Shown in pieces: positions 3,101 to 63,277 of a DNA stretch of 64,000 nucleotides. The notes beneath the pieces are model-generated. The model was not told where the DNA came from and did no database searches. It saw nothing but the letters and a program-made list of their open reading frames with translations. Source of the DNA: Escallonia rubra (lineage: Eukaryota; Streptophyta; Magnoliopsida; Escalloniales; Escalloniaceae). Location of the stretch: NCBI GenBank assembly GCA_033065855.1, contig JAVXUO010002601.1, forward strand, positions 310,001-374,000, written 5' to 3'. Within the stretch, counting starts at the first letter, position 1. Every line of letters begins with the position of its first letter. Made by a program: the position numbers and the translations under genes.

Positions 3101-3869
3101 GCTCATCTGAAATGAGTAGAATATGAAGAAAATCCTGGAATGGTAACTCATGGGTTCTCCCCCTCTGGTGGTTATGAACCATTATTATCAAAAAGAAAAA
3201 GGTAGATGAACTAGTAGAGCTGTGCCGGAAGAGCAAAGAAATGGGGTCCAAGTAGAATGAGACTATCCAATGATATAAAATCGGTAGATCATATATTTAC
3301 CTTGTGATGAAACCTCTAGATTCAAGTTTTTACTTTCAAATGATAATAGTGTCTCCATCCAGAAAATTTTATCCCCTTGTTATGTTTGGTGTTTTTTTTT
3401 TTTGGGGGGGGGGGGGGGGGGGTGTTGTCCGTGACGTTCTCTTCATTATGATATCGCATTCTTACTTTTCGACTATCCATTTACTAGTTTTTGTTGTTAT
3501 GCCCCATCTCATATTGTTCATGTGTAACGTTGAACAAAAACTGCCTGCGCTTGTTTATAACTTTCTACTTCCTGTGTGAAATCCTACAGCCCCTCTCTTG
3601 TTTATAACTTTGTCTATGTTCATTGGTATGCAAAGCTCAGATCCATGGTCGAAGTGATTACCGTGGATCTTTAGATTGCTAGAGGGCAGTCTAGTATAAT
3701 TTCATAAGAAGATATTTGGTGTGAGCTGTCCCATATGACTTACTTATCTTAGAAATAATTGTCTTATAAATTGGCACTTAGTTACATTTTTGAACAATTC
3801 TTGTCATGTTTAATCAGTTGAGATGTCCTATTTGAGCTAATATATGAAGGAATGTATTTTTAGAAAACA
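128..3869. other. Spacer and probable 5' untranslated region of SEC13
   Basis: No convincing coding frame was found. The stretch ends at a good splice acceptor (TTTTTAGAAAACAG, ending at 3870) about 30 bases before the SEC13 start codon, so one or more untranslated SEC13 exons probably lie somewhere inside it; their position could not be fixed. It contains a T12-G19 homopolymer junction at 3392-3422. Confidence 0.4.
3392..3422. repeat. T12-G19 homopolymer junction
   Basis: Twelve T are followed directly by nineteen G. Such a run can form G-quadruplex-like structures on the plus strand and is prone to length error in both replication and sequencing. Confidence 0.9.
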
Positions 3870-3901
3870 GCAAGACTTCGAACTGTGAATTGCAAGAAAT
3901 A

Positions 3902-4801
3902 ATGCCGTCACAAAAGATTGAAAGTGGTCACCAAGACACGGTTCATGATGTGGCAATGGATTACTATGGTAAGCGTCTTGCTACTGCATCTTCGGACAAC
4001 ACGATTAAGATAATTGGCGTGAGCAATTCGGCTTCTCAGCATCTCGCAACTTTGAGTGGTCACCAGGGACCTGTATGGCAAGTAGCCTGGGCTCATCCGA
4101 AGTTCGGGTCTCTCCTGGCTACCTGTTCCTATGATGGGAGGGTCATAATTTGGAAGGAAGGCACCCAGAATGAGTGGAGCCAAGCCCATGTGTTTGATGA
4201 CCACAAATCATCTGTCAACTGCATTGCTTGGGCACCTTATGAACTGGGACTCTGTCTGGCATGTGGATCCTCCGATGGGAATATCTCCGTCTTCACTGCA
4301 AAATCTGATGGTGGTTGGGACACATCACGTATTGATCAGGCTCATCAAGTTGGTGTTACTTCTGTATCATGGGCTCCGTCAACAGCACCCGGTGCTCTTG
4401 TTGGTTCTGGCCTGCTTGAATCAGTTCAGAAACTTGCATCAGGTGGTTGTGACAATACAGTGAAGGTGTGGAAACTAAATAATGGAGTTTGGAAGATGGA
4501 TTGCTTCCCCGCTCTCCAAATGCACAGTGATTGGGTCAGAGATGTAGCTTGGGCACCCAACTTGGGGCTTCCTAAATCTACAATTGCTAGTGCTTCTGAA
4601 GATGGAAGCGTTATCATATGGACTGTAGGCAAAGAAGGAGATCAATGGGATGGCAAGGTATTGAAGAACTTTGGTGCCCCTGTTTGGAGGGTCTCGTGGT
4701 CTTTGACGGGAAATATACTTGCCGTGGCTGATGGGACAAACAACATAACATTGTGGAAGGAAGCAGTAGACGGGGACTGGCAGCAGGTGACAACAGTTTA
4801 A
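3902..4801 (+). CDS. SEC13: SEC13, WD40 protein of the COPII coat and nuclear pore
   Basis: This single coding exon encodes 299 residues with no intron, as I recall for Arabidopsis SEC13A/B. Six WD40 blades can be followed at about residues 9-38, 53-85, 99-134, 147-192, 208-242 and 258-286; diagnostic stretches include DTVHDVAMDYYGKR, GPVWQVAWAHPKFGS and HSDWVRDVAWAPNLGLPKS. The family contributes to the outer cage of COPII vesicles with SEC31 at ER exit sites and to the Nup107-160 ring of the nuclear pore. The ATG at 3902 was chosen because MPSQKIE matches the family N-terminus; the frame runs a few codons upstream without an ATG. An AG acceptor at 3870 suggests a 5' UTR intron. The identification is very secure; whether the plant has further copies cannot be seen. 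Confidence 0.96.
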   Translation: MPSQKIESGHQDTVHDVAMDYYGKRLATASSDNTIKIIGVSNSASQHLATLSGHQGPVWQVAWAHPKFGSLLATCSYDGRVIIWKEGTQNEWSQAHVFDDHKSSVNCIAWAPYELGLCLACGSSDGNISVFTAKSDGGWDTSRIDQAHQVGVTSVSWAPSTAPGALVGSGLLESVQKLASGGCDNTVKVWKLNNGVWKMDCFPALQMHSDWVRDVAWAPNLGLPKSTIASASEDGSVIIWTVGKEGDQWDGKVLKNFGAPVWRVSWSLTGNILAVADGTNNITLWKEAVDGDWQQVTTV

Positions 4802-9330: not shown

Positions 9331-10940
9331 ATGGAGGCACCGGCCTTCTTCATCGGCGGCGGGTATTACGGTGCCGGAGACAACCAGTTCTCGCAGCCGG
9401 CCGACAACGTCAACAGCAACAACGGAAACGGCAACGCGTTCGCCATTGACGACCTGCTCGACTTCCCCAAGGAGGACGAGGTGATGGCCGACGCCTTCTT
9501 CGACAATCTCGCCGTGGACTCCGGCGACTCCTCGGCCGTCACCGCCGTGGACAGCTGCAATTCCTCCGTCTCCGGCAGCGAGCACCAGTTCTCCTCCGGC
9601 AACTTCAGCTCTGAGAGCTTCGCCGACGCTCAGTTCTCCGGCAGCGAGCTCTGCGTTCCGGTACTTGCTATTTTACTTTTTGTGCAAATTGAACACGAAA
9701 TTAACGTATCTTGCTATTTCGATTATAATGTTAGAATCTTTGTGTGATATTTCATCCGTAATTCTCGTGCAATTTTGGGCATTCAAGAAGGGTTCTTTAC
9801 TCACTCTCACCCATACATATAGTAGTATATCATCTGCTGATTACTACGATTATCGTTTCCTAAATTGTTTTCGAAATTTGTCATAGTTTCCTAATTTATA
9901 AGAAACTTTTCATATATTCAGAATTCGCGATTAAATTCACTTCCCAAAATTTTGAAAATTTCCAACAAAATTATGCACATTATACGAACTGAATGCGCTA
10001 AAACAGTACCAACCACATAAGCAGTGTTATACATTGTTAGGCATTACACCATATGAAAATGCCAGAGCAATTGAGGATTAGTCCTTGTGAATGCTCTAGC
10101 AATTTCTTGACGTGGTCACTGCAATGCATAATGATGTACACTATCATATTCAGAGCAATTTTCTCAATGTCAGAGAGTTCAAAATTATATGAATTTGAGC
10201 AAACGGTTTTTGCACTGACAATGTTGTGTATACTGAGACACATTGCTTTTGTGTTTTGGATTTAGTATGACGACTTGGCTGAGCTAGAATGGCTCTCGAA
10301 TTTCGTGGAGGAATCCTTCTCAAGCGACGACATGCAAAACCTCCAGCTAATCTCCGCCACAAAAGCAGCTCCCACCGACACCTCATCCTCCGAAACAACC
10401 CACCTCGATACCGCCACCAACCGAAACAGCAACAGCAACAGCTCGCCGATATTCCGCACCGACGTGTCGGTTCCCGGCAAAGCCCGCAGCAAGCGCTCAC
10501 GCGCCGCCCCCTGCGACTGGTCCTCCCGCCTCCTCGTCCTCTCCCCGGCCAACTCAACCGACACCCACGTCAAGACGCCGTCGTACCAGAAGAAGGAGAA
10601 TGCCGACACTCAGGGGAGGAGGTGCCTGCACTGTGCCTCGGAGAAGACCCCGCAGTGGCGGACCGGGCCCATGGGCCCGAAGACGCTGTGCAATGCCTGT
10701 GGGGTGCGGTTCAAGTCGGGCAGGCTCGTGCCAGAGTACCGGCCCGCTTCGAGCCCGACGTTCGTGTCGGCGAAGCACTCGAACTCGCACAGGAAGGTGA
10801 TTGAGCTGAGGAGGCAGAAGGAGCTGCAGAGGGCGCAGCATCAGCAGCTGCTAAGTCAAAGCGCCATTTTCGGCGTATCCAACGGTGAGGATTACTTGAT
10901 TCATCGTCAAAGTGGGCCCAGTTTCAGGCATATGATCTGA
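9331..10940 (+). CDS. GATA-type zinc-finger transcription factor (GATA9/GATA12-like)
   Basis: There are two coding exons, 9331-9660 and 10266-10940 (donor GTACTT, acceptor TTTAG, phase 0), giving 334 residues; Arabidopsis GATA12 is close to this length. Exon 1 is acidic and Ser-rich with the IDDLLDFP start found in subfamily A. The exon join restores [18 protein letters not shown], a hallmark of the group. A basic patch [10 protein letters not shown] precedes the single finger C-X2-C-X18-C-X2-C at residues 230, 233, 252 and 255 (CLHC...CNAC), followed by [12 protein letters not shown]. The tail [15 protein letters not shown] resembles the end of GATA9/12. The product should bind WGATAR sites in the nucleus. 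The leader before the ATG is CT-rich. Class is certain; the exact paralogue is not. Confidence 0.94.
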
Positions 10941-22300: not shown

Positions 22301-24640
22301 ACCTTGACTGTTGACATTTGAGCGAGCAGAAGAAGAAAATATATCCTATAGTGTTTCATCTGCAAGAGATGGGAGAGAGTGTGATCACTTGCCGTTGCAT
22401 TATCTTTAATGGGGATCTGTGGTATTCATATTGTGCGCCTTGCAGTATGATCGGCCATGCATGGTTCTATTATATTTAGAGCTAAGCTTAAAATACTATT
22501 TGCAAAATTTAGGTGTCTTGTCATGGTTCTTTTGAAGCCAAAATTTTCGGCTCTGGGAACCTTTTTGCTATGTATAGACAGGTGGTAATGTTTTGAAATA
22601 TACATTTTTATATGCATAAGCTGTCACCCCATTACTGCTGCCATTACATATACACTCCTAGAAAAGGTAACATAAGGATTCATCATTCATGGGTTGATGA
22701 ATAAGTCCGTTGTTCTGAATAACAGAATTGCTAGATTTTGGTCTTGCTATAAGCAAACTTAGAAGGAAGGAAAAAGGATTCAAAGTATTAGTAGTTTAGT
22801 CCTTGGCCTTTTGTCTTTTATAAACGTTATACGCTAATTCTATCTAGAGGAGTCGGACAAGAAGATTTATACCACTTAAGGTTTGGCATGGTAGCAAGGA
22901 GTTATTAAACTAGAACCAATGCTTATGTATGTCTAAAGAAGCCACATATGGATGACTTGATATCAGATAGCATTGGAATTTATATCATGCATATTAGTGG
23001 AAGATATTTCTACGTAGGGGAAAATAGGATTATTTTATGTAAGGATTGCAATCACGGCTTCTATTGAGTCACATGTCTTGTTAAATGTTCTACTCATTCG
23101 CGGCTTCTAATTTAAGAAGCTTGAACATTATCAGTCTGTCTGTGTGCATTTCAGTGTATGCTGACATACTTGATGCTTTGTTCAATAGGGTTTTTGTATG
23201 AACTGCAAGAATAATATTTTCACTATTGTTCACGTTCTGGACTTCTTATACCGTTGGTTAATCTTGCATTTCCAGATTTTCTCCAGGGGACACGAATTTA
23301 GTTTTGCGGGAGTTTGAGAAGTGTGGTATCATTTTGAAGCATGTCCCAGGTCCAAGAGATGCCAACTGGATGCACATTCTTTACCAGGTTCTTCTGCTCT
23401 CCTAACTTCAAGCTTGAGCTGTTGTTATTGCGTATATTTTGAGTTCAGCTTACATCTCCAAAATCTTGTTTGTTTACGTTCTCTTCATTGTCTTGTGACA
23501 TTTACATTCTTTGAGCTAGAATAGCAAAAGTTGTGTCTGTCCTCCTCCGACAAGAAATAAACCATGATATGGAAAATATTTAATTTTCTTTGAGCTAATT
23601 AGAGAATGGCATTCTGTGAAAGTTGATATGTGTCGTATTACATGTTCAATCAAGCACTCCTTTGTTCTACACTTTCTCTTCGCTGTTGGGACCTACTTTG
23701 CTTTCGGGACCTACTTTGCTTCTTCTAGCGCCGGTTGTGTACAATAATTGTCAAGATGCCTCCACACATCTGATGCAAGGAAGGAAACTTTGTTGTCTCT
23801 TGCATTTTCTGGAGAATGCTAGGATTTGCCACCACCCCCTAAAATATTTTTATTGTACTTGTTTATGAAGAAATTGGTAAAAGTTATCTACATTAATTTG
23901 TTTGCAGTTTAAATGCACAGCTAAATTGTTATACGACTTAATACTAAATTTGCTACCATGTGCAGTACTTCGTTATCAGATTTATGTTTTCAATTTAGTG
24001 GCGTATCTCCTCAAGGGACTCAAAACAATCATTCATGTGTGGACAGCCTAAATTGCGTCTGTTTGCAATATTTTATGTCGTTCCTTCAGCAGTTGTTACA
24101 CTAAAATTTTACGTATCGAATTATCTGCACCTTGAAAACACTTTGTCCTTCCCTTTCCAATATGATTTTGGACCATGTGGTTGCAGCTTAATAGTGGAAA
24201 CTAGCAATCATATATGTCTTTATTTTGCTGTTAAATGACGAATATATGGCTTGGTTATAGGTGAAATGACACTACAATTTTCTAAGTGAAAACTAACAAT
24301 TGTTTATGTGTTTACTTGTTTGCTAAAGCAGAATCGGTTTGATGCTCATAAAGCTCTCAGCAAGAATGGAATGCAAATAAATGGTGCTCTCATTGTTGGG
24401 GTGAAGCCAGTGGATCCAATGCAGCGCCAGGCTCTGAACGAAAGGATCAACGGTCAAGGGTTCATGCCGTTACCCCCAGGACCATCTGGCAGAAGCTCTG
24501 AACCAAACGGTTTTCGAGCTTCCCCTCGCCCTTACTATCTTCAAAATGGTAGCAGCAATTCGAGGCAGTCTGCTGGGACAATTGCCACACCAGCAAAATC
24601 AGTAGTTTCCAAGGTTATGGATTTGATGTTTGGCGTCTAA
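19320..24640 (+). CDS. NUP35: Nuclear pore protein NUP35 (MPPN/Nup53 family)
   Basis: Three exons, 19320-19948, 23276-23387 and 24332-24640, give 349 residues; the Arabidopsis protein is about 330. The N-terminal half is disordered and rich in Ser, Pro and Gly, with eight consecutive Gln (about residues 129-136) from a CAG run. The Nup35-type RRM fold starts at EEWVTVYG and runs through GDTNLVLREFEKCG, HVPGPRDANWMHILYQ, NRFDAHKAL and GALIVGVKPVDP. The last residues SKVMDLMFGV form the amphipathic membrane-binding end known in this family. The protein links membrane nucleoporins to the inner ring of the pore. Intron 1 is 3.3 kb with nothing recognisable inside. The intron 2 acceptor is AAGCAG, a NAGNAG pair, so a variant with one extra Gln is possible. 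Confidence 0.95.
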
Positions 24641-26248
24641 GTTGAATGTTATTCTTCTCCTCTCCACATTTACCGTTCGTCAGTCGCGTGCTTGATTATT
24701 CAAGGATGGCAAATGTATTACCTTGCCCCTTCAGTCGTACGAGGGTTTTATTGAATCTCTTCCCTTCCTCCAATTTTTGCCCCGGCAGCTTCTATTGGTG
24801 ATAATATACTAGAGGTACTTTTCGTGTTCTCTTTGGACTCGGAGATGGAATCATACAAAGATTCCTTGTTGTGCTTAGAATGGTTATAAGGTTACAGAAC
24901 ACTGTTCACTTGATATTGGAAATTACAGTCCCTTCTTGTTGAGTCTTGAGTTGCCCGTTCAACTGAACTATGTTCGTAGGTCCATTCCGTTTCCTCTTAG
25001 AAGGGCACATTGTTAGCATAACATTCCACATGCAGATGGGGAACTTGGTTCTTAGGCCCACACCCTTTCCTCTCCCAATTCCTGAAGGGCGCTTTATCCG
25101 CGTACCATCACATCCATATGGAGAAAATGCCCACCTCAATCATTTGACAAAGTGATCTCAAACGCAGCAAGATTGCGGAAATTTGTCGCAAGGCTTTTTG
25201 GAAAACCGACGTTGTTTCTTTCTATTGGTTCGTGGTCTTCTTGTTACTTTATTTCCTTGTCTTCTTTTCTGTTTGATTCCCACTTACTCTTTGTACCATT
25301 GCTATTTGCTATTGCTTCCCGGCTATTTTTCCATGTTTCCCGTGAAATTTTGTCAAGATAATTTCCGTTAATTATGGGCATAGTAAGTTGGAGTAATTAT
25401 TGAAGTTGAAATATAAACTAAAAATCATGTTACATTTTTCAATTTCTGAAGTGCAAAAGAGGCAAGAGTTGGGGGCTTTGTTAGCCAAAAAAAAGAGTGT
25501 TCTTTTACTTCCAAAAAATAAGTTAACTTTTCAAAAATGTTGGTCCAGTAATTTGTAATATAGGAGTTAGGGATTCAATAACCTATTTAGTTTTAAATGA
25601 ATTGCTTGAGACACTATTAAGACAAAAGTCGTTCACTAAATGTGAACCTTAAAAAAGTTACAAAAAGAAAGCCAAAAAATGTAAAAAGCAATCACACCTG
25701 TACATAATACCGAGATGAACAAACAAATCAGGAGAGGTAGCGTGATCGTGTAAAAAATTACTATCCAACAGATCCCGTACAATTAAACGCTACACTATCT
25801 TGCCATGACCACACTCTATTAAAACTTCAGAACGCGCTATTTATCCTCGTCTCGAAAGCCAAACCCTACTCCCAAAAATGAAAGAGACACAAAAACCATA
25901 ACCTAACCCTGAACACCCTTCTCGATGGTAATGGTGCATCGAGAAGGATGTTAAGTCTGAAGCAGAATTGAACATATAGTGACAAAAGAAGCTGGGGAAA
26001 TAGGCAATTAGACTGGTGTTAATTCCAAGAGAGCGTGAAAGTAAAAAAGACTGAAACAGAGCAAGGAAAATACAAAGCATCAATTCCACCGTACTGTTCA
26101 ATCACGGGTTACACTAGATCTTCGCCACGTGTCCCGCTCTCTTGCTTCCCCCGGTCACCCACCATTTTAAAACCCCCACTCCTTCTTCCTATTCACACAC
26201 ACACACACAAGTCACAACCCAAAAAAAAAGGAGCACACCCCTTCAAAC
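24641..26248. other. NUP35 3' UTR and CASPL3A promoter region
   Basis: No gene is seen. A G-box (CACGTG, 26126-26131) lies about 120 bases before the CASPL3A start codon, and a (CA)n run at about 26193-26208 lies in the probable leader. The minus strand from 25841 to 26101 is open but resembles nothing known. Confidence 0.4.
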
Positions 26249-29200
26249 ATGATGAACGGCCGGAAAACTCCCCCGGAGGTTGCTGTACAGCTGCCGGAGG
26301 CAAAGGTGGCGGCAGAGAGCGGGCAACTCGTGGCGGCCAGGCCTGAAAAGAGTGTTCGTCGGAAAGTGGAGCTTTTACATGTCATTATGCGGCTGCTCTG
26401 CTTGTTCACTTCGGTGGCGGCGCTTTCGTCGATGGTGACTGCAGAGGAAGCAGCCACCATATCCATCTACGGCTTTAACCTCCCTGTTTACTCCAAGTGG
26501 TCCTTCTCTGACTCCTTTGAGTAAGCTTTCCCCTTGACCAGTACCCTTTTCCTAATGTTGGTATTCAGTTTTGGGAACGTGCTGAGTAGAGCGTGAAAAT
26601 AGACATTCCTTTCGACATTTACTACCATTTTAGCTGGCGGCCTTTATGGCCCCTTAAACGGTTGGGAATCACGAGTTTTTTTCAGGCTTTGCATCATGTC
26701 AGTACTTATCAACGCTGTAATGGGTGTTTTCTCTTTTGACCGCTGAGCAACTTGACGAAAAGAAAAAGCTGTCATTTTTATATGTTTATCTCACTTCCAC
26801 TCCCATTTAAAACCAAAAATGTGCAGGAGTAATTATTGCAACTCTTGCATAGATGCCTTTACAAGGAGTGCGATTTGCAAGTTTGGGAGTGTCAGTAGAC
26901 TTTTCCACCATATTTTATGTTTTCAGTTTGTAGTACTTACTCGGAATCAAAATGCCCCTGTATTTGTCTTTTAGAAACAAGATGTCCCTCTTTCTTAGGA
27001 GTTTAATTTGTGGGTGTCGGTTCAAATGACCCGTGAAAGTGGGGTCTTTGGTATTTTTGTTTAGTTGTCTGTCATGTTATTGTGTTTGTTAATCTGCCTC
27101 AGTTGACTGTAATTGATTACTGATATATAGATTCCCCTTGTGGGCTGATGACTCACCGAGGAGTGCCAAATTTGATTACTGTCTCCCAAGCTTCATGCCA
27201 TTTGAATGAACAAAAAACACACACCCTTGAGGGTATTGTTTTCTATCTTTTACAGACAGGGACAATATTGTGATTAAAAGTCAATGAAATCTCTGTATTC
27301 CAAGTCAGTTTCCGTTAGGCTAGTAGTAGGGGTGACCATTTTTGGACCTTGTTCACTTCTTTTAGGTGTTTTACCTAGATTTGACGAGGGGTCACGTTTT
27401 CTTAGGCGCAGTAATTTAGTGAAGTTCATGCAATTAGTATGCTGACAAAGCCGAGGACTAATTTATAACGGGTCTCCCAAGCATCATGCCATTTGGATGA
27501 ACAAAGTCAATGAAATTCCTGTGTTTTGAGTCAATTTCTGTTAGGCTATTAGTTTGGGCGACCATTTGTGGACTTTGTTCAGTTTTAAGGTGTTTTACCT
27601 AGCTCTCGAGGGCCAAATTTGGTACATGCATTAATTTAGTAAAGTTCATTAATTAGTATTATCACATGTCGAGGACATAAAAAATTGTTAGAAATGTTTT
27701 CTTGATTATTAAAAAGTTGTTCTTTCGAACAATATAATTTGCTGAGCAGGTTCCTGGTCGGGGTTTCGGCGGCTGTTGCCGTTCACTCTCTTCTTCAACT
27801 GCTAATTGGTTCATCAAGGTTGCTGCGGAAGTCTCCGGTCATCCCATCTCACAATCATGCATGGTTTATTTTTGCTGGTGATCAGGTAAAAGATGTTTAT
27901 AGAGTCTAGTTTTATCCTGGTAGCGGACTTGATAATCAGAAGTAATCAAGCAAACTTGCGTTTCTTAGAACTTGCATTATTTTATGTCTGATTTTTGTTT
28001 TTAATGAGTTGCATTCTTGTGTGTGTTCCTGTATTTCCATTATCAGAGTACTTTGAGGTTCGTCGTACGATGGTGATGAGGAGAGTTCATAGGTTGCTTG
28101 CCCTTTGTGCGTATAGCTTTGCACCTAAGCCCGACCACCTTGCTTTTGTTGATTGTCGATGACCTCGTAAGAGCATATAAAACTGGGGGAATAAAGTAGA
28201 TCAAAAAAAAAAAAAAAAAAACCAGCATGATTGCATTTCATAAATCACGTTTCAGTTGGGTTTGGGGGCGGAGTGGAAAAATTTGGCTACTTGTGAATAG
28301 CTCAGTTTAAACTTTATGGTGGGCAAAAAATGATTCTATAAATCCTAGCAATACTGAATGGCTTCTAACAGAACATGGATTAATCATTTCAAGGAAGGGC
28401 CACCTTGGCTCAGAAAATGCCAAAGTAACATATTGGATATATCTTGCCTAGGTTCAGCTTCAGCATAACTCGTCGGTGTTGCTGTATTTCTAAGTTAAGA
28501 ATTCCTTTACTTCCATGGTTTTGCTCCGTACAGGTGACATGCATTCTAGTCCTATTGTTGTTATTATTGCTTCAGCATTTGTGGTTCTGGATATCGACTT
28601 AGAATTTATTGGCTTGCTTTGGACTATAGCCATTCAGAGGAATTAAGATAGAGCAACTGATAACATGCACATGTTCTGGTAATATGATTTCTCGTGAGTC
28701 ATTAGGTATATGAGTTTAGTTGTAATAGACTTTATACAAGGGGAAGTATAGATTATGCAGCAGGAGTAGAGGATCACGACAGTGCCGAGAGAACAAGATT
28801 AGATTTCGCGAGATCATTAGAGCTCTCTGTTAATTGAGAGTTTCAGTTGTAGTAACTGAGGGGGTCCTTTGTGATTTAGATGGCATAATTTGAAGCTGGA
28901 ACAACCCAGCCCCAGTATTTATAGGGTTAGGGCTCCACTGGTCATCTGCGCCTGGGCTGAACCCAGCTCACCAAACTTGCACGCTCAAGGGGTCATGCAA
29001 GGGTTCAAACTTCGAAGGGTAGCCAACTGCGCAAGATGGACAAAGCCTTATTGGGCCAGTGTGGCGCATCGTCATTACTGCCACGACATTGGAACATCTC
29101 GAGGTCTGAGTGTTCAGTTGCGTCACTCGCTTAGTATTGCATGAAAACTCTTGATGAAACTTCCAAAACACGTATCTCCTGGTTCCAATCAAGGTGAACT

Positions 29201-30402: not shown

Positions 30403-31087
30403 GGAGGTGTCAAATGGGCCGGCGCAGCCCAGCCCGAAAGGATTTTCAATGTAGCGGGTCAGACTTGGCTTTGGTTCAAGTCAGAACGGGCCGGACAGGG
30501 CCTAACTCCCATTATGAAGGTCCAACCCAAGCCATGTCCTTTGTCCGACATATATGCTTGGGCCGACCCACTTGTCGTGAAAAGATTGAGAGGTTTTAAC
30601 AAATAACAATGCAGAAGAAAGCCTGCAATGCAGAGTAAGATCGGAGTAGTGAATTGTACTTAAGGTGGAAAAATATTTAAGGAATGACTCATTTCATTAA
30701 ACTTTCAAGCCTCACGGAAGACCAAAATACCTCATGAAAGAATTTTCAACTGCATAAAACAGTTGATGCACTAAGGTTGGACAAATATATCCTTCAAAGT
30801 ACTGTTGGAAGGGCGGGGCGTGGGTGGGTGGGTGGGTGGGGGGGGGGAGATGATATTATGAAAGACGAACTTAAACAATCTTTAAGGGCCGCTCGAGCCA
30901 GGTCTCGGCTCAGGGGTGTGTACAGGCTGAACCGGACTGGGCATCTGTTGGAAAATTGGAAGTCCAGTCTAAGCCCAAGCAATGTCCTTTAGCATTTGTA
31001 GCCCGATAGTGCACTGTTGATCATAGTGTGAAGCTATTTTTGGGTTGGAATCAACGTCCATAGGTCGCCGGCCCATTTAACTCATCT
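30403..31087. mobile_element. hAT-like non-autonomous element
   Basis: The left end contains GGAGGTGTCAAATGGGCCGG (30403-30422), of the kind found in many plant hAT elements. The right end carries CGCCGGCCCATTTAA (31066-31080), the inverse of 30410-30424 at 14 of 15 bases. The interior has the GGGCC/CCAAGCCC-type sequence common to this family and a G-rich run (about 30810-30850). No transposase frame and no clear target duplication were found; the limits are approximate. Confidence 0.55.
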
Positions 31088-31557
31088 AAATGGGTAGGGC
31101 GCCCAAATTACATGTAGGGATCTCACCTCACCTGGTCCTTGGAGTGCCTAACCCACCAAATGGGGCCACCCGACGCTCTTTAGACGACCTTGGTTTGCAC
31201 CATTGCTCTAACGTGCCACTCATCCTTCTATCACTGGGTGCCTACATTAAGCTAGTCAATGCCCTATGCACCCAATGCAACAAGCAGCCCCTATTGAGTG
31301 TTTTTGTCTCCGAGATTTCCTGTCACGTAGGTAGGTATGAAAACTCTTCGAAAGTGCTACCTCCATTTTCAGGTGAATTATGCGGTGTTAGGGATATTTA
31401 TGGGCTTTACGTTTACACAACTTGTTTTCATGTTTTGTCTTCTGTTTTGTTTTTCAGATTTTGGTATTCAATTCTAAAATTGTATTGTGTACTTTTAGTT
31501 TTTTCAGTATCTATTTTTTTAGTTTTTTTTGCACATTTACTATTTTCATTTTTACCA
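31088..31557. other. Spacer between hAT-like element and Pack-MULE
   Basis: A moderately GC-rich part (31088-31330) has an open frame but no recognisable protein; it is followed by a T-rich stretch. No feature is called. Confidence 0.3.
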
Positions 31558-31566
31558 ATTTTTTTA
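31558..31566. repeat. Left 9-bp target-site duplication of the MULE
   Basis: ATTTTTTTA at 31558-31566 is identical to 32965-32973. A 9-bp duplication is typical of Mutator-like elements. The word is low in complexity, but its position exactly next to both inverted repeats supports it. Confidence 0.75.
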
Positions 31567-31789
31567 GGGTTAATTACACTTATGTCCCTGAGGTTTGGGT
31601 GAAATTACAGTCAAGGACACTAAGTTTCAAAAGGTAATAGACTGTGACCACAAATGTTAAAAAGGTAACACTTATGTCCATCCGTTAGGTATCCGTCCAA
31701 AAATTGTATTTTTTGTGACGTCATCAATGCGTATTTTCAAAATATGGCAATTCTACCCCTAGATTACTGTTACCTCTCTTCTTTCCTTC

Positions 31790-32121
31790 TTTTTCACGAG
31801 CTCGCTCTCTCTTCCCCTTATCTCTTTCTTCCATTAGATACAGGTAAAGTTCCACCTTCCTCACAACCACTCTGTTATTGCTAAAACCCACATCCCAAAA
31901 CAGTAGAATATCCAGACTTGTGTGTGTTTCTTGGGGTGAATTCTTGATGGGACTGTAAATGGGTTCTGTGGAGAATGGTCTGGCAGTGAAGAGAGATCTT
32001 CACCTGCTGCGTTCTTCATCAGTGACTAACGAGAATGGGAGGAACCCATTTGGTCAAAGACCCAGATCGAGATTGGCAAGATTTGTGCTGTTCAAGAAGA
32101 TTGACAACCTGCAATGGATTT
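31790..32121 (+). pseudogene. Captured 5' piece of a glycosyltransferase gene (At5g04480/At4g01210-like)
   Basis: From the ATG at 31959 the frame reads MGSVENGLAVKRD, then RSSSVTNENG, then QRPRSRLARF and FKKIDNLQWI. This order matches the cytosolic N-terminus of a plant family-4 glycosyltransferase that in the full protein runs into a membrane anchor just after LQWI. Here it stops at that point and passes into unrelated sequence. The stretch before the ATG looks like part of the parent leader, with a splice-donor-like CAGGTAAAG near 31850. Parent identity is from memory and not searched. It lies wholly within the MULE. Confidence 0.6.
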
Positions 32122-32605
32122 CTTCCCTCCACCTCACCCCGTCGTCCCCTGCCCTTCCCCTACCCCGCCTCCTTCCCTTTCCCCCTACCCCGCTTGAATC
32201 TCAATTACAAAGATGGTGGACGTCGACCAACAACAGCAACGGCACCAACAAGACCACTTAATAGGCACCTACTTCCTCGAGCTCTGGCGACAGAACTCAC
32301 GAGCCTCGATGACGTCGGACGCGCAAAGGAAGGGTGAAAACGAAGACATGGAGGACGATCCGACGGAGCTGGACACGGTAAACAGCTCCGGCGGGTTCTC
32401 GGTGGTATTTCCCGACAAGTTGACGGTCCAGTACCCGAGCGTGAACCTGCACGGCCACGATGTCGGCGTGGTCCAGGCCAATAAGCCCGCCCCAGTTAGG
32501 AGGCTCGTCTACTACTTCGAGGTTTTCGTCAAGAACATTGGGGCCAAGGGCCAAATCGGCATTGGATTCATCGCCGAAGGCTTCAAGATGCGTCGACAGA
32601 ATATG
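32122..32605 (+). pseudogene. Captured 5' piece of a RanBPM-like SPRY-domain gene
   Basis: The frame from 32213 includes GTYFLELWRQ and then NSSGGF, FPDKLTVQYPSVNLHGHD, VGVVQANKPAPVRRLVYYFE and GAKGQIGIGFIAEGFKMRRQ. This is the N-terminus and the start of the SPRY domain of plant RanBPM proteins, which serve as scaffolds in the CTLH/GID ubiquitin-ligase complex. The similarity stops right after KMRRQ, where the parent has PGWE as I recall, so the capture probably ended at or near an exon border. The SPRY core and the LisH, CTLH and CRA regions are all absent. An open frame to 32629 would fuse it to non-homologous residues. Transcription is unknown. Confidence 0.8.
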
Positions 32606-32609
32606 GAGA

Positions 32610-32800
32610 TAAATGAAACCCTAGCTTGAAAATTAGGGAGATAAATAAATAGCTTGAAACCCTAATTTTCAAATTAGGGTTTCAATTCTTATTAAAATTG
32701 AAATCCTAATTTGAAAATTAAGGAGATAAATGAATGACTTAAATCCTAATTTAAAAATTAGGGTTTCAATTCTTTTTGAAACCCTAATTTGAATGGCATG
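32610..32800. repeat. AAACCCTAATTT palindromic repeat cluster inside the MULE
   Basis: Alternating AAACCCTAATTT and AAATTAGGGTTT words, separated by GGAGATAAATRAATG-type spacers, occur in about two and a half units. They can fold into several short hairpins. They lie between the RanBPM piece and the right inverted repeat. Confidence 0.7.
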
Positions 32801-32964
32801 GCAAATAATTTACCTTTCAAATCATGGGCAATATGGTCATTTTGACCATTCCGTTATGTATTTGGGTAGTCCGTTAGGTCAAAGGACATAAGTGCCTATT
32901 TTCCAAACTTATGGACACGCGTGTAATTTCACCCAAACCTCAGGGACATAAGTGTAATTAACCC

Positions 32965-32973
32965 ATTTTTTTA
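32965..32973. repeat. Right 9-bp target-site duplication of the MULE
   Basis: ATTTTTTTA, identical to 31558-31566, directly follows the right inverted repeat. Confidence 0.75.
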
Positions 32974-34670
32974 GATCCATTCTTAGATGTTTAGCATTTT
33001 CTACACTATTTATACACATTTCTTTCCATTTAACCGTACTCTTAACCTAACAAATTATTTTTATACTTTCCATTTATCATCCCAATCTTTTTTACTTCTC
33101 ACAATAAAACCATCACTCAACACTACACAATGTCTCCACGTAGGGCCCACCCCAACTCAAAGAATAGAGAACAGAGTTACGTTGGTTTCCCTCCCCCTTC
33201 CCCTTCCTTTCTTCCCTGAGCCCACATTTGTGTGTGACATGACTGACATCCCCTTCCCCTTCACGTGTTCATGTAATTCCCTCTTTTCTTTCCCTGTTCG
33301 TGGAAAATGGCAGAGATCCTCTTCCCCTTCCCCTTCCCTGTTCGTGGAAAATGGAGGAGATAAATGAATGAATGAGAGAGAGAGAGAGAAAGAGAGGGGG
33401 GAGAGCTAGCTAGGGGCTCTCTGACGTGACGTTGCAGCTAGGCGTCAGAGGACAAGTCAGAAAATTGTGAACAGTTGACACTTGCTTTGGTATTCTGAGA
33501 AGCGAGAAAATGTGAAGTGTTTTCATTTATTTCTGTTCTATATCGATTTTTTTATTCAAAACGAATACGAAAAAAGATAAAAGTACACAAAAAAGTATCT
33601 TTTCATCATCATTACAAAAACGAAAACAAATCCTGTAAACGTATAGACCCTAAGGCATTGACGAAATCGCGCCAACACTACCCGATGCTCATCGACTTAT
33701 ATGGGGGTGATGACCCCATGGCCATTCCCCACATCACTGCAAGTCGTTGATGTGCTTGTAGCCTGACATGCTTGGCTGTCCGATAGAGGATATACTCTTC
33801 ATGTTTAGATTCACTTGCATCACCTATTGTGTTGTTTTACGAGACAATACAAAAGGCACCAAGCTTAATGCTGAGACAAGGGATGCTCAGTTGCTCACAG
33901 AAAGGGTTCCTACGGTCTAACATTTGCCAAACTCTTGGGCAGGAAGAGGTGAAGGTACAGAACAAGGCAACTTAAGTATGACAATGCATTGACAGCTGAT
34001 GACCCCAAGACTTTTTACTAATTGGCACTACTACTTGTTACAAGGAAAAGAATCTCGGGTGCTTATAAATATAACGTCTCAAAAGATAAACATATATCAA
34101 TAGTTACTTGTTACTTAAATAATATTATTTTTCACCGTACCAATGTGATTATATAATTTTTTTTTATTTTTCTTCCCAATTAACAACTCAGTAATAGTAT
34201 CGACGAATTCATTAATGGTAGAGTAAGATACTGTTTTGTTTTTATGACCGTAAATTGTAAGTTACATGCCTAAGTCAATAATATAAATACCGTTAGTTAT
34301 TAACAATTTTACAAACTACTCATCGATCTACCCAAGATCATATTCGTTACAAGATCGTTAGATCGCGATAATTAAATAATATACTCACTCCAAAAAAAAG
34401 TGAAAAATGGATCAATTTTAGAGCAAGAATATATGAACTTTCCTGCCAAAACCTGTACTGTCAATCAGTTCTTATAACGACTATTCTATCGTCAGGAGAT
34501 AAAAATAAATGTCTACCGCCACAAGACCACTCCCGCCCAGTAATCGGGAATTTGGGGGCTCACGCTGGAAACCCTAATCAGCATCATGCTCTTCCAATTT
34601 CAGCGTCAAATTCGGTAAACATCGTACAATTCCGATAATGTAAAACACACTTTCCTTGTATGCAACTCTC
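32974..34670. other. Spacer and FTSHI2 promoter
   Basis: No gene is seen. A TTCCCTGTTCGTGGAAAATGG word is duplicated at about 33290 and 33337, set in (CCTTCC)n sequence. A GA-rich run lies at 33374-33400. GGGGTGATGACCCC at about 33705-33718 is a perfect short hairpin. The final 200 bases contain GGAAACCCTAATC, typical of a plant leader. Confidence 0.4.
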
Positions 34671-44491
<9,821 letters not shown>

Positions 44492-45961: not shown

Positions 45962-46983
45962 ATGGGTTCGGCTTCCATCTTCTTACGTCTCTTCTGCACC
46001 ATCATACTCGTCCTTGCCACCGCAAACACCCCTCCTGTCACGGCGTCCGAGGAGTTCAAAGTCGGGGACGCGGAGGGTTGGCGACAGCCCGGCTTGAATC
46101 ACACTGAGATGTATAACCACTGGGCTGCAAGGAGGCGATTCCACGTCGGGGATTCTCTCCGTGAGTTTATCATGCTCCTTTTCTTTTTAAACTCCATGTC
46201 GTACGTGGTATAGACTGTAAATCAGTTTGTGTTCCTACAATTATGTAGTTTAATGATTTGGAAAATCTGCGTTAATATATTTGATCAGTTTACTAGAAAT
46301 TCTTTGTTGAAAAGAGAGAGAGAAGAGAATGATTGGTTGTGTTATAGATGCTATGTTCTTATGCAGAAATCACTCGGGAGCAAGTTACGAAGTCTCTAGT
46401 TATATATAGGATATCCAACGATTCTTTGTAGCACAAACACGTTGTAAAGAAGTCTATACATTTCGTGTGACGTTTGTAAAACTTTTAGCAACAACTTTAT
46501 GGCATCACATTTGCTACTAGAGGTGTTAAAGAAGTGCCATCTTTGAATAAATGCTGTTAAGAAATGGGCACTTGATTCCATGGATCGACTTGATATTTTT
46601 ACTTCTGCACAGGTTTTGAGTACAAGAACGATTCAGTCCTGGTGGTGAACAAATGGGGGTACTACCACTGCAACACAAGCAGTCCAATCTTTGTCTTCAA
46701 CGATGGAAACACTGTTGTGAATCTTGACAGGCCTGGGCCAAGCTACTTCGTCAGTGGCGACCCAGATCATTGCAGAGACGGCCAGCGTTTACTGGTGGAG
46801 GTGATGAATCTGCACCCACCAGTTTCACACACTCCTCCCTCCATTGCCACCCCACCGCAGCCCTATTTGCCATCGTCTCCTGCACCATCTCCACTCGGTT
46901 CCGGTTCAGCAGCTCCATCGGTTTCCTTGAAAGTGATTTCAGTACTCTTGATGACTCCTCTTCTAGTTACCACCATAGCATAG
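45962..46983 (+). CDS. Early nodulin-like protein (phytocyanin, copper site lost)
   Basis: Two exons, 45962-46160 and 46613-46983 (phase 1), give 189 residues. A signal peptide covers about residues 1-28 (cleavage likely after PVTA). The phytocyanin fold runs from EEFKVGDAEGW to RLLVEVM, with the structural disulfide pair C86 and C120. At the type-I copper positions, His is replaced by N72 and Cys by S114, while H119 and Q124 remain; early-nodulin-like proteins typically lose copper this way. A Pro/Ser-rich arabinogalactan-like stretch (SSPAPSPLGSGS) and a hydrophobic tail (SVLLMTPLLVTTIA) predict a GPI anchor at the plasma membrane. The lone intron sits where phytocyanin genes usually have it. 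The subfamily member is not fixed. Confidence 0.93.
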
Positions 46984-51655: not shown

Positions 51656-52307
51656 CAGGGGCGGACCACGCTCATGACCAGGAGGGGCCATGGCACCTCT
51701 CAACATGTTTTGGAATTATATTTTAGTTTCTTAAATGATAGTTAAATATATTTAAAATATTTACGAAAATGTCACTATATTGTAACATTAATTTATTAAG
51801 ATTTTATTTTCTTGTGTTCTTTTACTCTTTGTACCCTGTCATAATCTTTGTCTTTGTCATTTTCTTACTCTATCTTCATTCTTCCAAATCCCAATTTCTA
51901 AATCACTAAATTGCAAAAAAATAATAAAAAAATTTGGTTAGTTCTTTTATTTTTAAGTATGAATTCTTATAATTTGTGAACTTATACGTGACTAATGTAC
52001 TCATACAATTAATAATTACATTAGAAATATATTTATACAGTAAGAGTTAATTTTTTTCATGTAAAATTAGTAATTTATTAACAAGTTAAATAAATCACTA
52101 TGCATAATGAAAATATATTGTGAGTAGTCAAATTGAACAATTTATTTTGTATTAAATGTATTTAATAGAGACGCTAATTATAATATATATATTTTATTAT
52201 TCGTGTATTAAGTGAACTTGAACTTTCTGAATTCTTTTATGTTAGTCATCAAATCTTTTTTATTATTTTTTGACACTTCCCGACTAGACTTTCTAAGTCC
52301 GTCCCAA
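51656..52307 (+). mobile_element. Tip100-like hAT non-autonomous element, copy A
   Basis: It starts CAGGGGCGGACC and ends in GTCCGTCCCAA, a worn inverse of the start. CCTAGCAC (51648-51655) and CTTAGCAC (52308-52315) flank it as an 8-bp duplication with one difference. The 652-bp body aligns along its length with copy B at 60537-61201 in the same orientation. There is no transposase. The worn terminus and duplication suggest it is the older insertion. Confidence 0.8.
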
Positions 52308-58684: not shown

Positions 58685-59040
58685 TCAATCCAAGACTACC
58701 CTAGATTTTGTCGATTTCTGAGCCTTGACAACTAGCTTGGCTCCAACTATAGCATCCCGGGGTGTAGCGCGACAATCAAAGGTGCAGCCATGTTTGCCGG
58801 AGTAGCGATGAACAGAACAGAACATGTTTCCACATCTATAGTTGAAAGTCGTTAAACCAACACGCTTCCTGCAAGTGCTGCATCTGTTCGAACCTTCTTT
58901 TCTCTTCTCAGTGTTCTCACCAACTACTGAAACACAGGATGCTGATGTTAACAAAACCCCAATGCCTAATGAACCAGGCCATACATCAATAGCTGCACAA
59001 AGATCCGACTCCTTTGCACCTACATTGAAGCATGAGCATC
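58685..59040 (-). pseudogene. Decayed stress-associated protein (AN1 zinc finger only)
   Basis: The minus strand encodes [35 protein letters not shown] and [15 protein letters not shown], the C-terminal AN1 finger of plant SAP (A20/AN1) proteins. The frame can be followed upstream to about 59030 ([11 protein letters not shown]), but the A20 finger is missing. The third AN1 cysteine of the FNCRCG motif is Tyr (FNYRCG), so one zinc ligand is lost. It has no introns, but neither do many real SAP genes, so a retrocopy is possible but not shown. Intact SAPs act in stress responses as ubiquitin-binding proteins. This copy is most likely nonfunctional. Confidence 0.72.
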
Positions 59041-59080: not shown

Positions 59081-59740
59081 AGAATAAATGGAGCGCATTT
59101 TAGTCAAACGCACTATTTAGAAGCATGAGCATCACATCCCGCTAATTTGGACGATTTGTTTTTTAAAGTTGTAATAGATTCGTCACTCTAGGCTTTCTTT
59201 GCCACTTTCCTTGAGGGGCTTTTTGCAATGATCCCAAACCACAAGGGTAGTTGTCGTAATTTCCCCAAAAATCTACTAAAACTATTACGCAAGAGTTATG
59301 GACAATAGGATAATCATTTCCATGGGCCTAACACAGGCGAAGGAGAAACCTGTCACGACCAAATCCAAAGCTCGAAAGGAGCTGTTCACATTTAGAGACA
59401 GCTTCACTTCTAGGCTCGGGGGCAAAAAGTCATAAACATGCTATTACCACAAATTTAAAGAGATAAAAAACAATGTATTTCACGTCACAGGAATTCTCGA
59501 AAAACATAACAAAGGCTGCATTTTGATCCCGTGAGAGAAGACTGAAAACTGCATACTTGGCTTACCGGTGACCGCTAGATCTTACCTGACAGTTGTGATT
59601 AAGAGGGTATAGAAAAAGAGGTGCCGCACGCCCGTACCTACGATCTGCATTGTCAGTTAGTATTGAAATTTTTTTTGCTATTATGCGAGTTGAAAGAAAT
59701 CTTCTTCCTACTTTCCATAAAGCGACAATTAATGGTCACT
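59081..59740. repeat. Dispersed repeat, copy 1 (uninterrupted)
   Basis: It runs from AGAATAAATGGAGCGCATTT through CAAATCCAAAGCTCGAAAGG and GGCTTACCGGTGACCGCTAG to AAAGCGACAATTAATGG. The whole stretch is repeated, diverged, in copy 2 starting at 59862. Confidence 0.75.
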
Positions 59741-60503
59741 AAATATATTTAGTGACTTTTATTCAATGACGTTCAAAAATGCTGCTAATAGTTGTCGCCG
59801 AAAATGTTATCAGAAAAGACACAAAATATTTAACGGCTATTAATTGTCACTTTGGAAGTGAAGAATAAATGGAGGGCATTTTAGTCATTTCTTTGAATCA
59901 ATTTCTACCAAACGCACTTCTTATCCACATAAGCATCACATGCCGTTAATTTGGACAATTTACTTTTTACGATCATAACAGATTTGTCAACCCCAGGAAT
60001 TTCTTTGCAACTTTCTTGACCCCAAGGGTTTTGCAAAGACCCCAAACCACGGGGGTAGTTGGCATAATTTTTCCTAAAAGCTACTAAACTATAACGCAAG
60101 AGTGTTGAACAATAAACGATCATTTCTATGGACCTAACACAAGTGAATGAGAAATCTCTCACGATCAAATCCAAAGCTTGAAGGGAGCTGTTCATATTTA
60201 GAGGCAATTTCACTTCTAGGCCCGGGGACAAAAATTCATAAGCATGCCGCTACCTGGAATCTATAGAGTTCAAAAGGCTTTTTTTAATGCCTTTTTAACT
60301 TTTTTCTTTTTAAGATGGACAAACAAATTTTAACTTCAGTCCAGCTTATACTAGATCCTACAAATCTTTATATAAAGGCCTAGGTGGGCTACAGGAAATT
60401 CTTTTCTAAAAATAATGTAATTTCCACATCACAGGAATTCTTGAAAAACATAACAAATGCCGCATTTTGATCTTGTGAGAGAAGACTGAAAACCACATAC
60501 TTT

Positions 60504-62411
60504 TTTTTTTGGGATAAAAATCGAGAATAGTATTGACAGTGGCGGAGCACAAGCATGACCGGGGGGGGGCCATGGCACCCCCCCCCCACCCCCCACCCCA
60601 CCCCACCCCCCACCCCACCCCACCCCCACCCACCAAAGTTTCAGATTTTTTTTTTGTTGTTTTAAATAATGGGTAATTATGTTTAAAATATTTACTAAAA
60701 TGCCACAATATTATAAATGAATGTATTAGAGTTTTAATTTTGTTATATTTTTACTTTTTGTGACACCGACCGTCGTAGTCTTTATTTTTCTCGTTCTTTT
60801 GTCTATCTTCATTATTTCAAATTCTAAATCTCCAGATCATAAAGAAAATACTAATAGATCATGGTTAGTTATTTTTTTTTTTCATTTTTTAGTTTAAATT
60901 CTTATAATATGTTATACGTGACTATTGTAATCATACAATTGGTAATCGAACCGGTGATACATATATACAATAAGAGTTATGTTTCTTTTATGCAAGATTA
61001 GTAGTTTGTTGTACGTTGACTAACTTTATCAGGTTAAATAAATCACTACGAATAGTGATATAATATGATTATTAGTCAAATTGAGCAATTTATTTTGCAT
61101 TTAACATATTCAATCGTGACGCGAATTCTTTTATGTTGACCATCAAAATTTTTTTAAGACTTTTTGGCCCCCCCCGGTTGAACTTCCTGGATCCGCCCCT
61201 GAGTATTGATAAAGAGCTTTTGCAGCAATTACATCCGCCAAACGGCATAAAGGTCACGACAAACCCGTGACTCTGTCTACTCATAAACTTTAACAACTAG
61301 CCTCGTAAACCTATACACATTACAATTGAATTAAAGCAGAGCAAATTCAATACTTTAACTCAACTTAAGGTAACATGCCCAATCTACAGATTAGCAAACG
61401 AAAAGAAACGAAACATAAAATAAAAAGCACAAAAACAACGTGATAACAATATAGCCGATAACGGGAACCGCACAAACTAAAGGTGAGTAAACTGTTAAAC
61501 ACGACGCAACACACCACCATGATCGTCAACACCGCAAATTTAATCCTTCTACTATCCTTTTCTCAAATCTGAACCAACTTTCTCGAGACATGGCGAAAAA
61601 CAACACTACTCACCCACAACAGATCACGGTAGGCACATGACGCTAAACCACCGAAAGGAGCCCCCCACCCCCACCCAAGAACAGATTGCCCGAACCCCAG
61701 ATAGAGCTCCCCCCACCCCCCCCCCCCCCGCCCCAAAGCCTCAAATACCCCATTTTTCCCAACAGAGCGCACCCTACCCCACCCCCGAGACCTTATCCCC
61801 CTCACCTTACCCGCCCAAGACCCCAGGATCCACCAAACAATCCATAACTTATGGCGAAGCCCCTTAAAAAACACAAGCCCTCCTACAACTACCAAAGATC
61901 ACACAACCAACCACAAACCCAATATCCACCATTTGTACAACAGGGAACAGATAGGAATTAAGAGCGTAAAAAATGAAGGATTTTTTTAGAAATGTCAGTC
62001 AAGTAACACCGGCGTAATTCCGATCACCATCGGCAAAGATCCGATCACCTCCGGGGGAGGTGCAAAAGAAGACGAAATGGCCAGATCTGTTTGGATCTAC
62101 CAAGATCGATCGAGATCGGAGACTTACCGAGAGCTCGCCGTCTCTGATCAAATTTGTTGAGACGCGCACCGCTACCATCCGCCCATCCGTTGCGTCGCCG
62201 GCCACCTATTGATCAGGCCGTAAAGATACCACCACACCAGACGAAATCAAGGAAAAACAAGACTACACGCCGAAGAGGCTGCCGCCCCACGCGCGCGGGA
62301 GCACGGTTGGGCTGCCATGGTGGCTGTCTGTCGGGCTTTGTTCTTTAGAGAGAAGGCAGAGAGAATTGTTTTTTAGAGAGAGGAAATTCGAGATTTAAAA
62401 AAAAAATCGCA
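60504..62411 (-). mobile_element. LINE-like or retrocopy insertion, minus strand
   Basis: On the minus strand it starts near 62411 with a GC-rich leader-like region and ends with an A10 tail (T10 on plus at 60501-60510) after a sequence ending TTTTTATCCC. CCACATACTTT on the left and TCGCACACTTT on the right agree at 8 of 11 bases and may be its target duplication. Without the nested hAT it is about 1.24 kb. No reverse transcriptase frame was seen, so it is either an internally deleted LINE or a retroposed transcript. C-rich runs at 61683-61730 are part of it. Confidence 0.45.
60537..61201 (+). mobile_element. Tip100-like hAT non-autonomous element, copy B
   Basis: It starts CAGTGGCGGAGC and ends GGATCCGCCCCTG. 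AGTATTGA flanks it exactly on both sides (60529-60536 and 61202-61209), an intact 8-bp duplication. The body aligns with copy A at 51656. It carries a G9...C10 hairpin around CCATGG, followed by a (CCCCA)n tract that copy A lacks. It sits inside the retroposon-like insert, so it is the youngest layer of this nest. Confidence 0.88.
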
Positions 62412-62585
62412 CACTTTGCTTACCGATGACTGCTAGATCTTACGATTGCAATTAAGAGGGTACAGAAAGAAGTGTTGTACCTATGATCCGTATCGTTAGT
62501 TAGTATTGAAAAAAAATTAACTGCTATTCAGATCGAAAAAATCTTCATCTTACCCTTTACATAGTGACAATTAATGGTCATTAAC

Positions 62586-63277
62586 AACACAGTACACGTA
62601 TCTATGGAGAGATTATAACGGATCAAAGATAAATCCTAATATCTTTAACAGATGACATGCACCTTAAATTCTCCATTTTCCAATAAATTGTCTTGAAAGT
62701 TACTACGAGTACTCCATAAACTAATTTCAAAATATATCAGTTTTCATCATTTTCTTCAAAACTGTTTCCCAAAACTATCAAACAACACAGTACACGTATC
62801 TCTGGAGATATTTAATTTATTACCAATTCCAGTTCAGGCGATATACAGGCTCTTCGTGGCCATTTAATGGAAAGGCCAGAGCTCGGTGCCTTTTTCCAGT
62901 TCTCTGCCGCTGGAAATGGGGGCAGAGAGCAAAAGTAAAAGGAGCTAACAGCTAAATTAGTACCGTAGAGTGGTCAGTACGTGTAGTCTCTCGTGTCTCG
63001 AAGGGATAGAGATGTTTGCATTGTCCCGTTGCTGTATTCTCTCCTCCTGTCCCGCTCTGTTCCTCCATTCTAACCACAAAGAATTACAAACGCAAAGCAT
63101 GTCTGTGGCTTCGAAACTGAAACGCCATTCTCTCGGGCCTCGCAATCGCTCAGGCTTTCTCTGCAACAACTCCCACTTGCTTAAATTATCAGCAAAAGAA
63201 GGCATAAACAATGGTCCGTTGCGAATGTTCATGACCAGTGAGGCAGGCAGTACACTTGTCCTAACCATACGTACACC
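62586..63277. other. Spacer with overlapping open frames on both strands
   Basis: Plus 62970-63332 and minus 62957-63289 are both open for more than 100 codons. Neither contains a known domain. The minus frame has a more protein-like composition (WELLQRKPERLRGPREWRF) and might be an exon of a gene running off the window, but no splice partners were found. Confidence 0.3.

Follow-up and report, generated by a model that had tools for sequence, protein, structure and literature searches.

A probable Pack-type Mutator-like element carrying a RanBPM-like gene fragment, and probably a second captured gene piece, in Escallonia rubra

The window (the whole stretch of DNA analysed, 64,000 nucleotides of Escallonia rubra contig JAVXUO010002601.1) contains a 1398-bp element that is flanked by a 9-bp target-site duplication, bounded by terminal inverted repeats (TIRs) and occupied by two open reading frames (ORFs) on the plus strand. 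It is considered here as a candidate Mutator-like element (MULE) of the Pack-MULE kind, and its parts are as follows.

31567-32964: whole element, 1398 bp
31558-31566: left target-site duplication, ATTTTTTTA, identical to 32965-32973
31567-31609, plus strand: left TIR, 43 bp, 43/43 complementary to the right end
31610-31775: probable left subterminal AT-rich element sequence (GC 0.364 over 31567-31775), inner boundary approximate
31776-31958, plus strand: putative 5' untranslated region (UTR) of the first captured gene, the leader ahead of its ATG, boundary approximate
31959-32120, plus strand: putative glycosyltransferase-like N-terminus (MGSVENG...LQWI), 54 amino acids, an open frame with a tentative label
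32121-32212, plus strand: GC-rich spacer, 92 bp, GC 0.609
32213-32599, plus strand: RanBPM-like 5' coding fragment ending ...GFKMRRQ, identified by phmmer against PDB chains
32609-32800: 3' subterminal palindromic repeat module, 192 bp of nested direct and inverted repeats with five telo-box words
32922-32964, minus strand: right TIR, 43 bp
32965-32973: right target-site duplication, ATTTTTTTA

The two ends of the element, GGGTTAAT, form the only perfect inverted repeat of at least 20 nt in the window whose two arms are separate, the one other perfect inverted repeat of that length being a self-palindrome at 59736. In 10 mononucleotide shuffles the longest perfect inverted repeat reached 15-18 nt, as against the 43 nt observed. 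Comparison of duplication lengths from 2 to 11 bp identified 9 bp as the only one that adjoins both ends, and random pairs of 9-mers were identical in 1 of 400,000 draws locally and in 3 of 400,000 across the window. The size of the element, its 43-bp perfect inverted ends and its exact 9-bp duplication are thus as a preliminary description of this DNA had given them. Target-site duplications are 8 bp long in hAT elements and 3 bp long in CACTA and Harbinger elements. A hAT-type Pack element was rejected because the 8-bp words adjoining the ends differ (TTTTTTTA and ATTTTTTT), as was a CACTA or PIF/Harbinger Pack element, for which the 3-bp words differ (TTA and ATT) and the ends are not CACTA. 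MULE duplications are 9-11 bp long (PMC3310237; for this and every other paper cited, statements cover the part of the text that was available), and a duplication of 9 bp only therefore fits a Mutator-like element, not hAT or CACTA/Harbinger. Pack-TYPE elements occur in all main plant TIR superfamilies (PMC8903248), which raises the possibility that the element belongs to another of these (hAT, CACTA or PIF/Harbinger). However, with 9 bp and not 8 or 3 bp shared next to the ends, and with ends that start GGG rather than CACTA, this is highly improbable.

The second of the two interior frames starts at the ATG at 32213 and encodes 138 amino acids (143 from stop to stop). A phmmer search of all PDB chain sequences at E<=0.1 returned four matches, every one of them RanBP9 or RanBP10, the best being RanBP10 5jia_A (E 4.9e-5) and RanBP9 5ji7_A (E 1.3e-4). 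The aligned part covers query residues 68/69-128 of 138 and, in the RanBP10 chain of 210 residues, residues 44-103, which we take to be about the first half of SPRY. The RanBPM-like ORF stops 10 residues past the last aligned residue: beyond 32599 it continues for nine codons into AT-rich element sequence, with the stop ending at 32629. The RanBPM identity, which had been proposed earlier for this 5' fragment, is supported by one search that is consistent in all four matches. Within the piece, GC at codon positions 1/2/3 is 0.61/0.33/0.77 in a window of GC 0.398, and the 403-bp stretch over it was open in 14 of 2000 composition shuffles. Relative to AtRanBPM (At1g35470; PMC3464593), the captured piece represents an N-terminal portion that extends as far as the region to which the RanBP9/10 SPRY chains align, but the ORF has 138 residues against 467 and leaves no room for the LisH, CTLH and CRA domains. 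A functional RanBPM gene was accordingly rejected: the SPRY domain is incomplete and the ORF is too short for LisH/CTLH/CRA. No copy of the RanBPM piece or of the other captured sequence was found elsewhere in the window.

The first interior frame starts at the ATG at 31959 and runs for about 99-100 amino acids to a stop ending at 32261, its first 54 residues ending in LQWI at 32120; the putative leader ahead of it contains a 3-codon upstream ORF at 31947-31958. The peptide MGSVENG...FKKIDNLQWI presumably resembles the N-terminus of a plant At5g04480-like glycosyltransferase, a likeness that no search bore out. Where this piece ends, GC shifts from 0.463 to 0.609, and the 92-bp spacer that follows is probably the 5' UTR of the RanBPM parent. 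Both interior peptides are those quoted in the preliminary description, and both pieces are present, with limits that shift slightly: the last base of LQWI is 32120 rather than 32121, and that of KMRRQ is 32599. The pieces do lie on the same strand, as had been stated, yet they are not joined directly, since the spacer separates the first of them from the RanBPM start codon. A distance of 254 bp (254 mod 3 = 2) between the two ATGs puts the pieces in different frames, the first of which runs into TAA-TAG at 32259. Given that the frames differ, a fusion protein is ruled out for the present sequence, an exclusion that does not cover a fusion transcript. Because the RanBPM homology ends early and the pieces are mutually out of frame, the element as predicted most likely has no protein function.

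The only ORF of at least 110 amino acids that lies wholly within the element is the RanBPM frame, and neither the 138-residue nor the 99-residue interior ORF matched any Pfam family at E<=1; with no transposase match in either, the element would be non-autonomous. Judged on its ends, duplication and contents, it is very probably a non-autonomous Mutator-like DNA transposon of Pack-MULE type, and it is probably a chimera of two parent genes. Several observations weigh against this reading. The duplication word is a low-complexity T-run with six plus-strand copies in the window, the duplication pair included, two further copies lying less than 600 bp from the element (31513 and 33546). A fair estimate for a chance match of this word would be closer to 1 in 1000 than to 1 in a million; since ATTTTTTTA is a common T-run in the window, the duplication is good and not overwhelming evidence, and the inverted ends carry more weight. 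Those ends, at 43 bp, are short for a MULE, and past the 43 bp they align weakly with many gaps. The Pfam search of the RanBPM ORF at E<=1 gave no SPRY domain and no other family. As for the first piece, its glycosyltransferase label found no match in PDB, Pfam or literature text, and 45 of 2000 shuffles matched in composition left a 297-bp (99-codon) frame open, so that the openness of this frame alone is weak evidence. These last two points favour a Pack-type MULE that captured one locus only, that of RanBPM, the 'glycosyltransferase' ORF then being either a chance frame or another part of that locus. Nevertheless, the presumed resemblance of the peptide to a glycosyltransferase N-terminus, although unconfirmed, and the change in GC at the end of the first piece speak for a separate source, and a single-locus capture is unlikely. 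Of the earlier claim of a Pack-MULE with two host genes, then, the TIRs, the MULE-type duplication and the RanBPM piece stand, and the glycosyltransferase does not have the same backing.

A palindromic module near the 3' end of the element was overlooked in the preliminary description. The module falls between the captured pieces and the right TIR, and it probably belongs to the subterminal sequence of the element rather than to a gene. Tandem Repeats Finder identified an 84-bp unit in 2.0 copies at 32614-32781, and the module carries five of the 11 occurrences in the window of the words AAACCCTA/TAGGGTTT, which we take to be telo-boxes. The RNA predicted from 32602-32800 folds with a minimum free energy of -58.6 kcal/mol (z -6.84), a stability reached by 0 of 200 shuffles. 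Outside the element, at 33347-33371, a 25-bp sequence matches part of the module at 92%.

The strength of this fold, together with a RanBPM ORF that is open over 138 amino acids and two pieces that resemble sense-oriented 5' ends, raises the possibility that the element is an expressed and selected chimeric gene or a trans-acting regulator, whose transcript or small RNAs control the RanBPM and glycosyltransferase parents. This is very unlikely: the two pieces are in different frames, the RanBPM homology ends early, a young capture would be expected to keep an intact ORF anyway, and the hairpin, lying outside the captured pieces, would not on its own be a source of RNAs directed at the parents. 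Slighter still is the likelihood of one form of this proposal, in which chimera and hairpin together act as a small-RNA source, double-stranded RNA formed when the hairpin is transcribed spreading into both captured 5' ends and silencing both parents. If true, one insertion would link the regulation of two unrelated genes, RanBPM (of the CTLH complex) and a glycosyltransferase. Small interfering RNA reservoirs have been described in maize (PMC13317346, in its available part). In the reading preferred here, that of a Pack-MULE without protein function, any transcript of the element would be non-coding or contain short ORFs at most, and small RNAs could derive from the 3' hairpin module or from a transcript that starts at the right end and runs antisense.

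As a Pack-MULE, the element may have arisen when repair or template switching put copies of parts of two host genes in place of the DNA between the ends of a parental MULE, with each captured piece the 5' end of a gene (leader and start codon) and both in the same orientation. A gap-filling mechanism has been put forward for Pack-MULEs; for multicopy animal Pack-TIRs there is a model of fork-stalling with template switching, and it has been suggested that this deserves a test in plants (PMC8277862). A MULE transposase acting in trans would then have moved the element to its present, apparently intergenic site. Given the exact target duplication and the undiverged ends, a fairly recent insertion is suggested.

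The preliminary description had presented such an element as noteworthy outside the grasses, a claim that is weakened by the 220 Pack-MULEs counted in tomato and 46 in Arabidopsis, beside 2853 in rice and 276 in maize (PMC3310237), and by reports that MULEs of Arabidopsis, Lotus, melon, rice and grapevine contain captured fragments (PMC2528002). Like the tomato and Arabidopsis Pack-MULEs of PMC3310237, the element is non-autonomous, has a duplication within the 9-11 bp range and has part of a gene enclosed by inverted ends. Its length of 1398 bp is slightly above the 1000-1200 bp at which the number of tomato Pack-MULEs peaks, and it differs from both sets in its two apparent parents and its 43-bp TIR. 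With the transduplicated MULEs of grapevine, Lotus and melon (PMC2528002) it shares the capture of gene fragments in a dicot, although the genes captured there are others, the grapevine example being a putative cellulose synthase. Two-parent captures are routine in rice: two or more parents were found for 5-10% of MULE-derived putative genes in an 11-genome rice-group set (PMC4858842), and material from multiple loci is present in rice Pack-MULEs and Arabidopsis Pack-CACTA elements (PMC8903248). The chimeric rice genes of PMC4858842 have GC-rich captured sequence in common with the element, but the pieces of the element are in different frames and do not make up a chimeric ORF. The available parts of the literature, in a search that was not exhaustive, gave no count of Pack-MULEs with two parents in a dicot. 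Each ingredient of the element is already known, the Pack-MULE kind is known and common, and knowledge of Pack-MULEs is unchanged by it. It is of interest as a clean and probably young specimen whose sequence shows the duplication, the ends, one or more gene fragments and possibly two capture junctions; given the genome of the host, both captures could be dated and the repair junctions that formed the chimera identified.

Further searches added no relatives. Besides the two ends themselves, no copy of the 27-base TIR start was found in the window with 8 mismatches tolerated, and neither the TIR strings nor the peptides of the two captured pieces occurred in literature text searches. The whole element had no match in plasmid or phage collections and the TIR none in viral contigs, results that say nothing about plants. 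The interior ORF peptides gave 3 (RanBPM) and 34 (glycosyltransferase) pattern matches in viral contigs, and the RanBPM peptide 105 in genome contigs; none was confirmed in either search. All of these collections are of prokaryotic, viral or plasmid sequence and so are uninformative for plants. Rfam gave 0 matches over the window at the gathering threshold.

A long ORF, presumably FtsH-like, starts at 34644, with the element some 1.7 kb upstream of it. This ORF (34644-35999) and the one at 31090-31602 gave no convincing Pfam match. A further Pfam scan covered 10 of the 40 stop-to-stop ORFs of at least 110 amino acids in the window; four had no match, and six, a set of plant-like appearance, matched as follows.

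3848-4798: WD40
10266-10937: GATA zinc finger
24290-24637: Nup35-type RRM
26171-26521: CASP domain, just under the cut-off
46594-46980: plastocyanin-like
58688-59038: AN1 finger, just under the cut-off

Just upstream of the element, at 30404-31086, inverted ends of 21 nt (86%, with the core GTCAAATGGGCCGGCG at 15/16) enclose about 680 bp whose flanks have a 5-bp word alone in common, not adjoining the arms; we take this to be, in appearance, a degraded hAT-like non-autonomous element. Diverged direct repeats of 71-94% identity are clustered at 59105-62812, with one unit also at 51715-52179; these repeats are possibly remnants of other transposons. C-rich low-complexity tandem tracts lie in an AT-rich region at 36667-36721 and 60578-60634.
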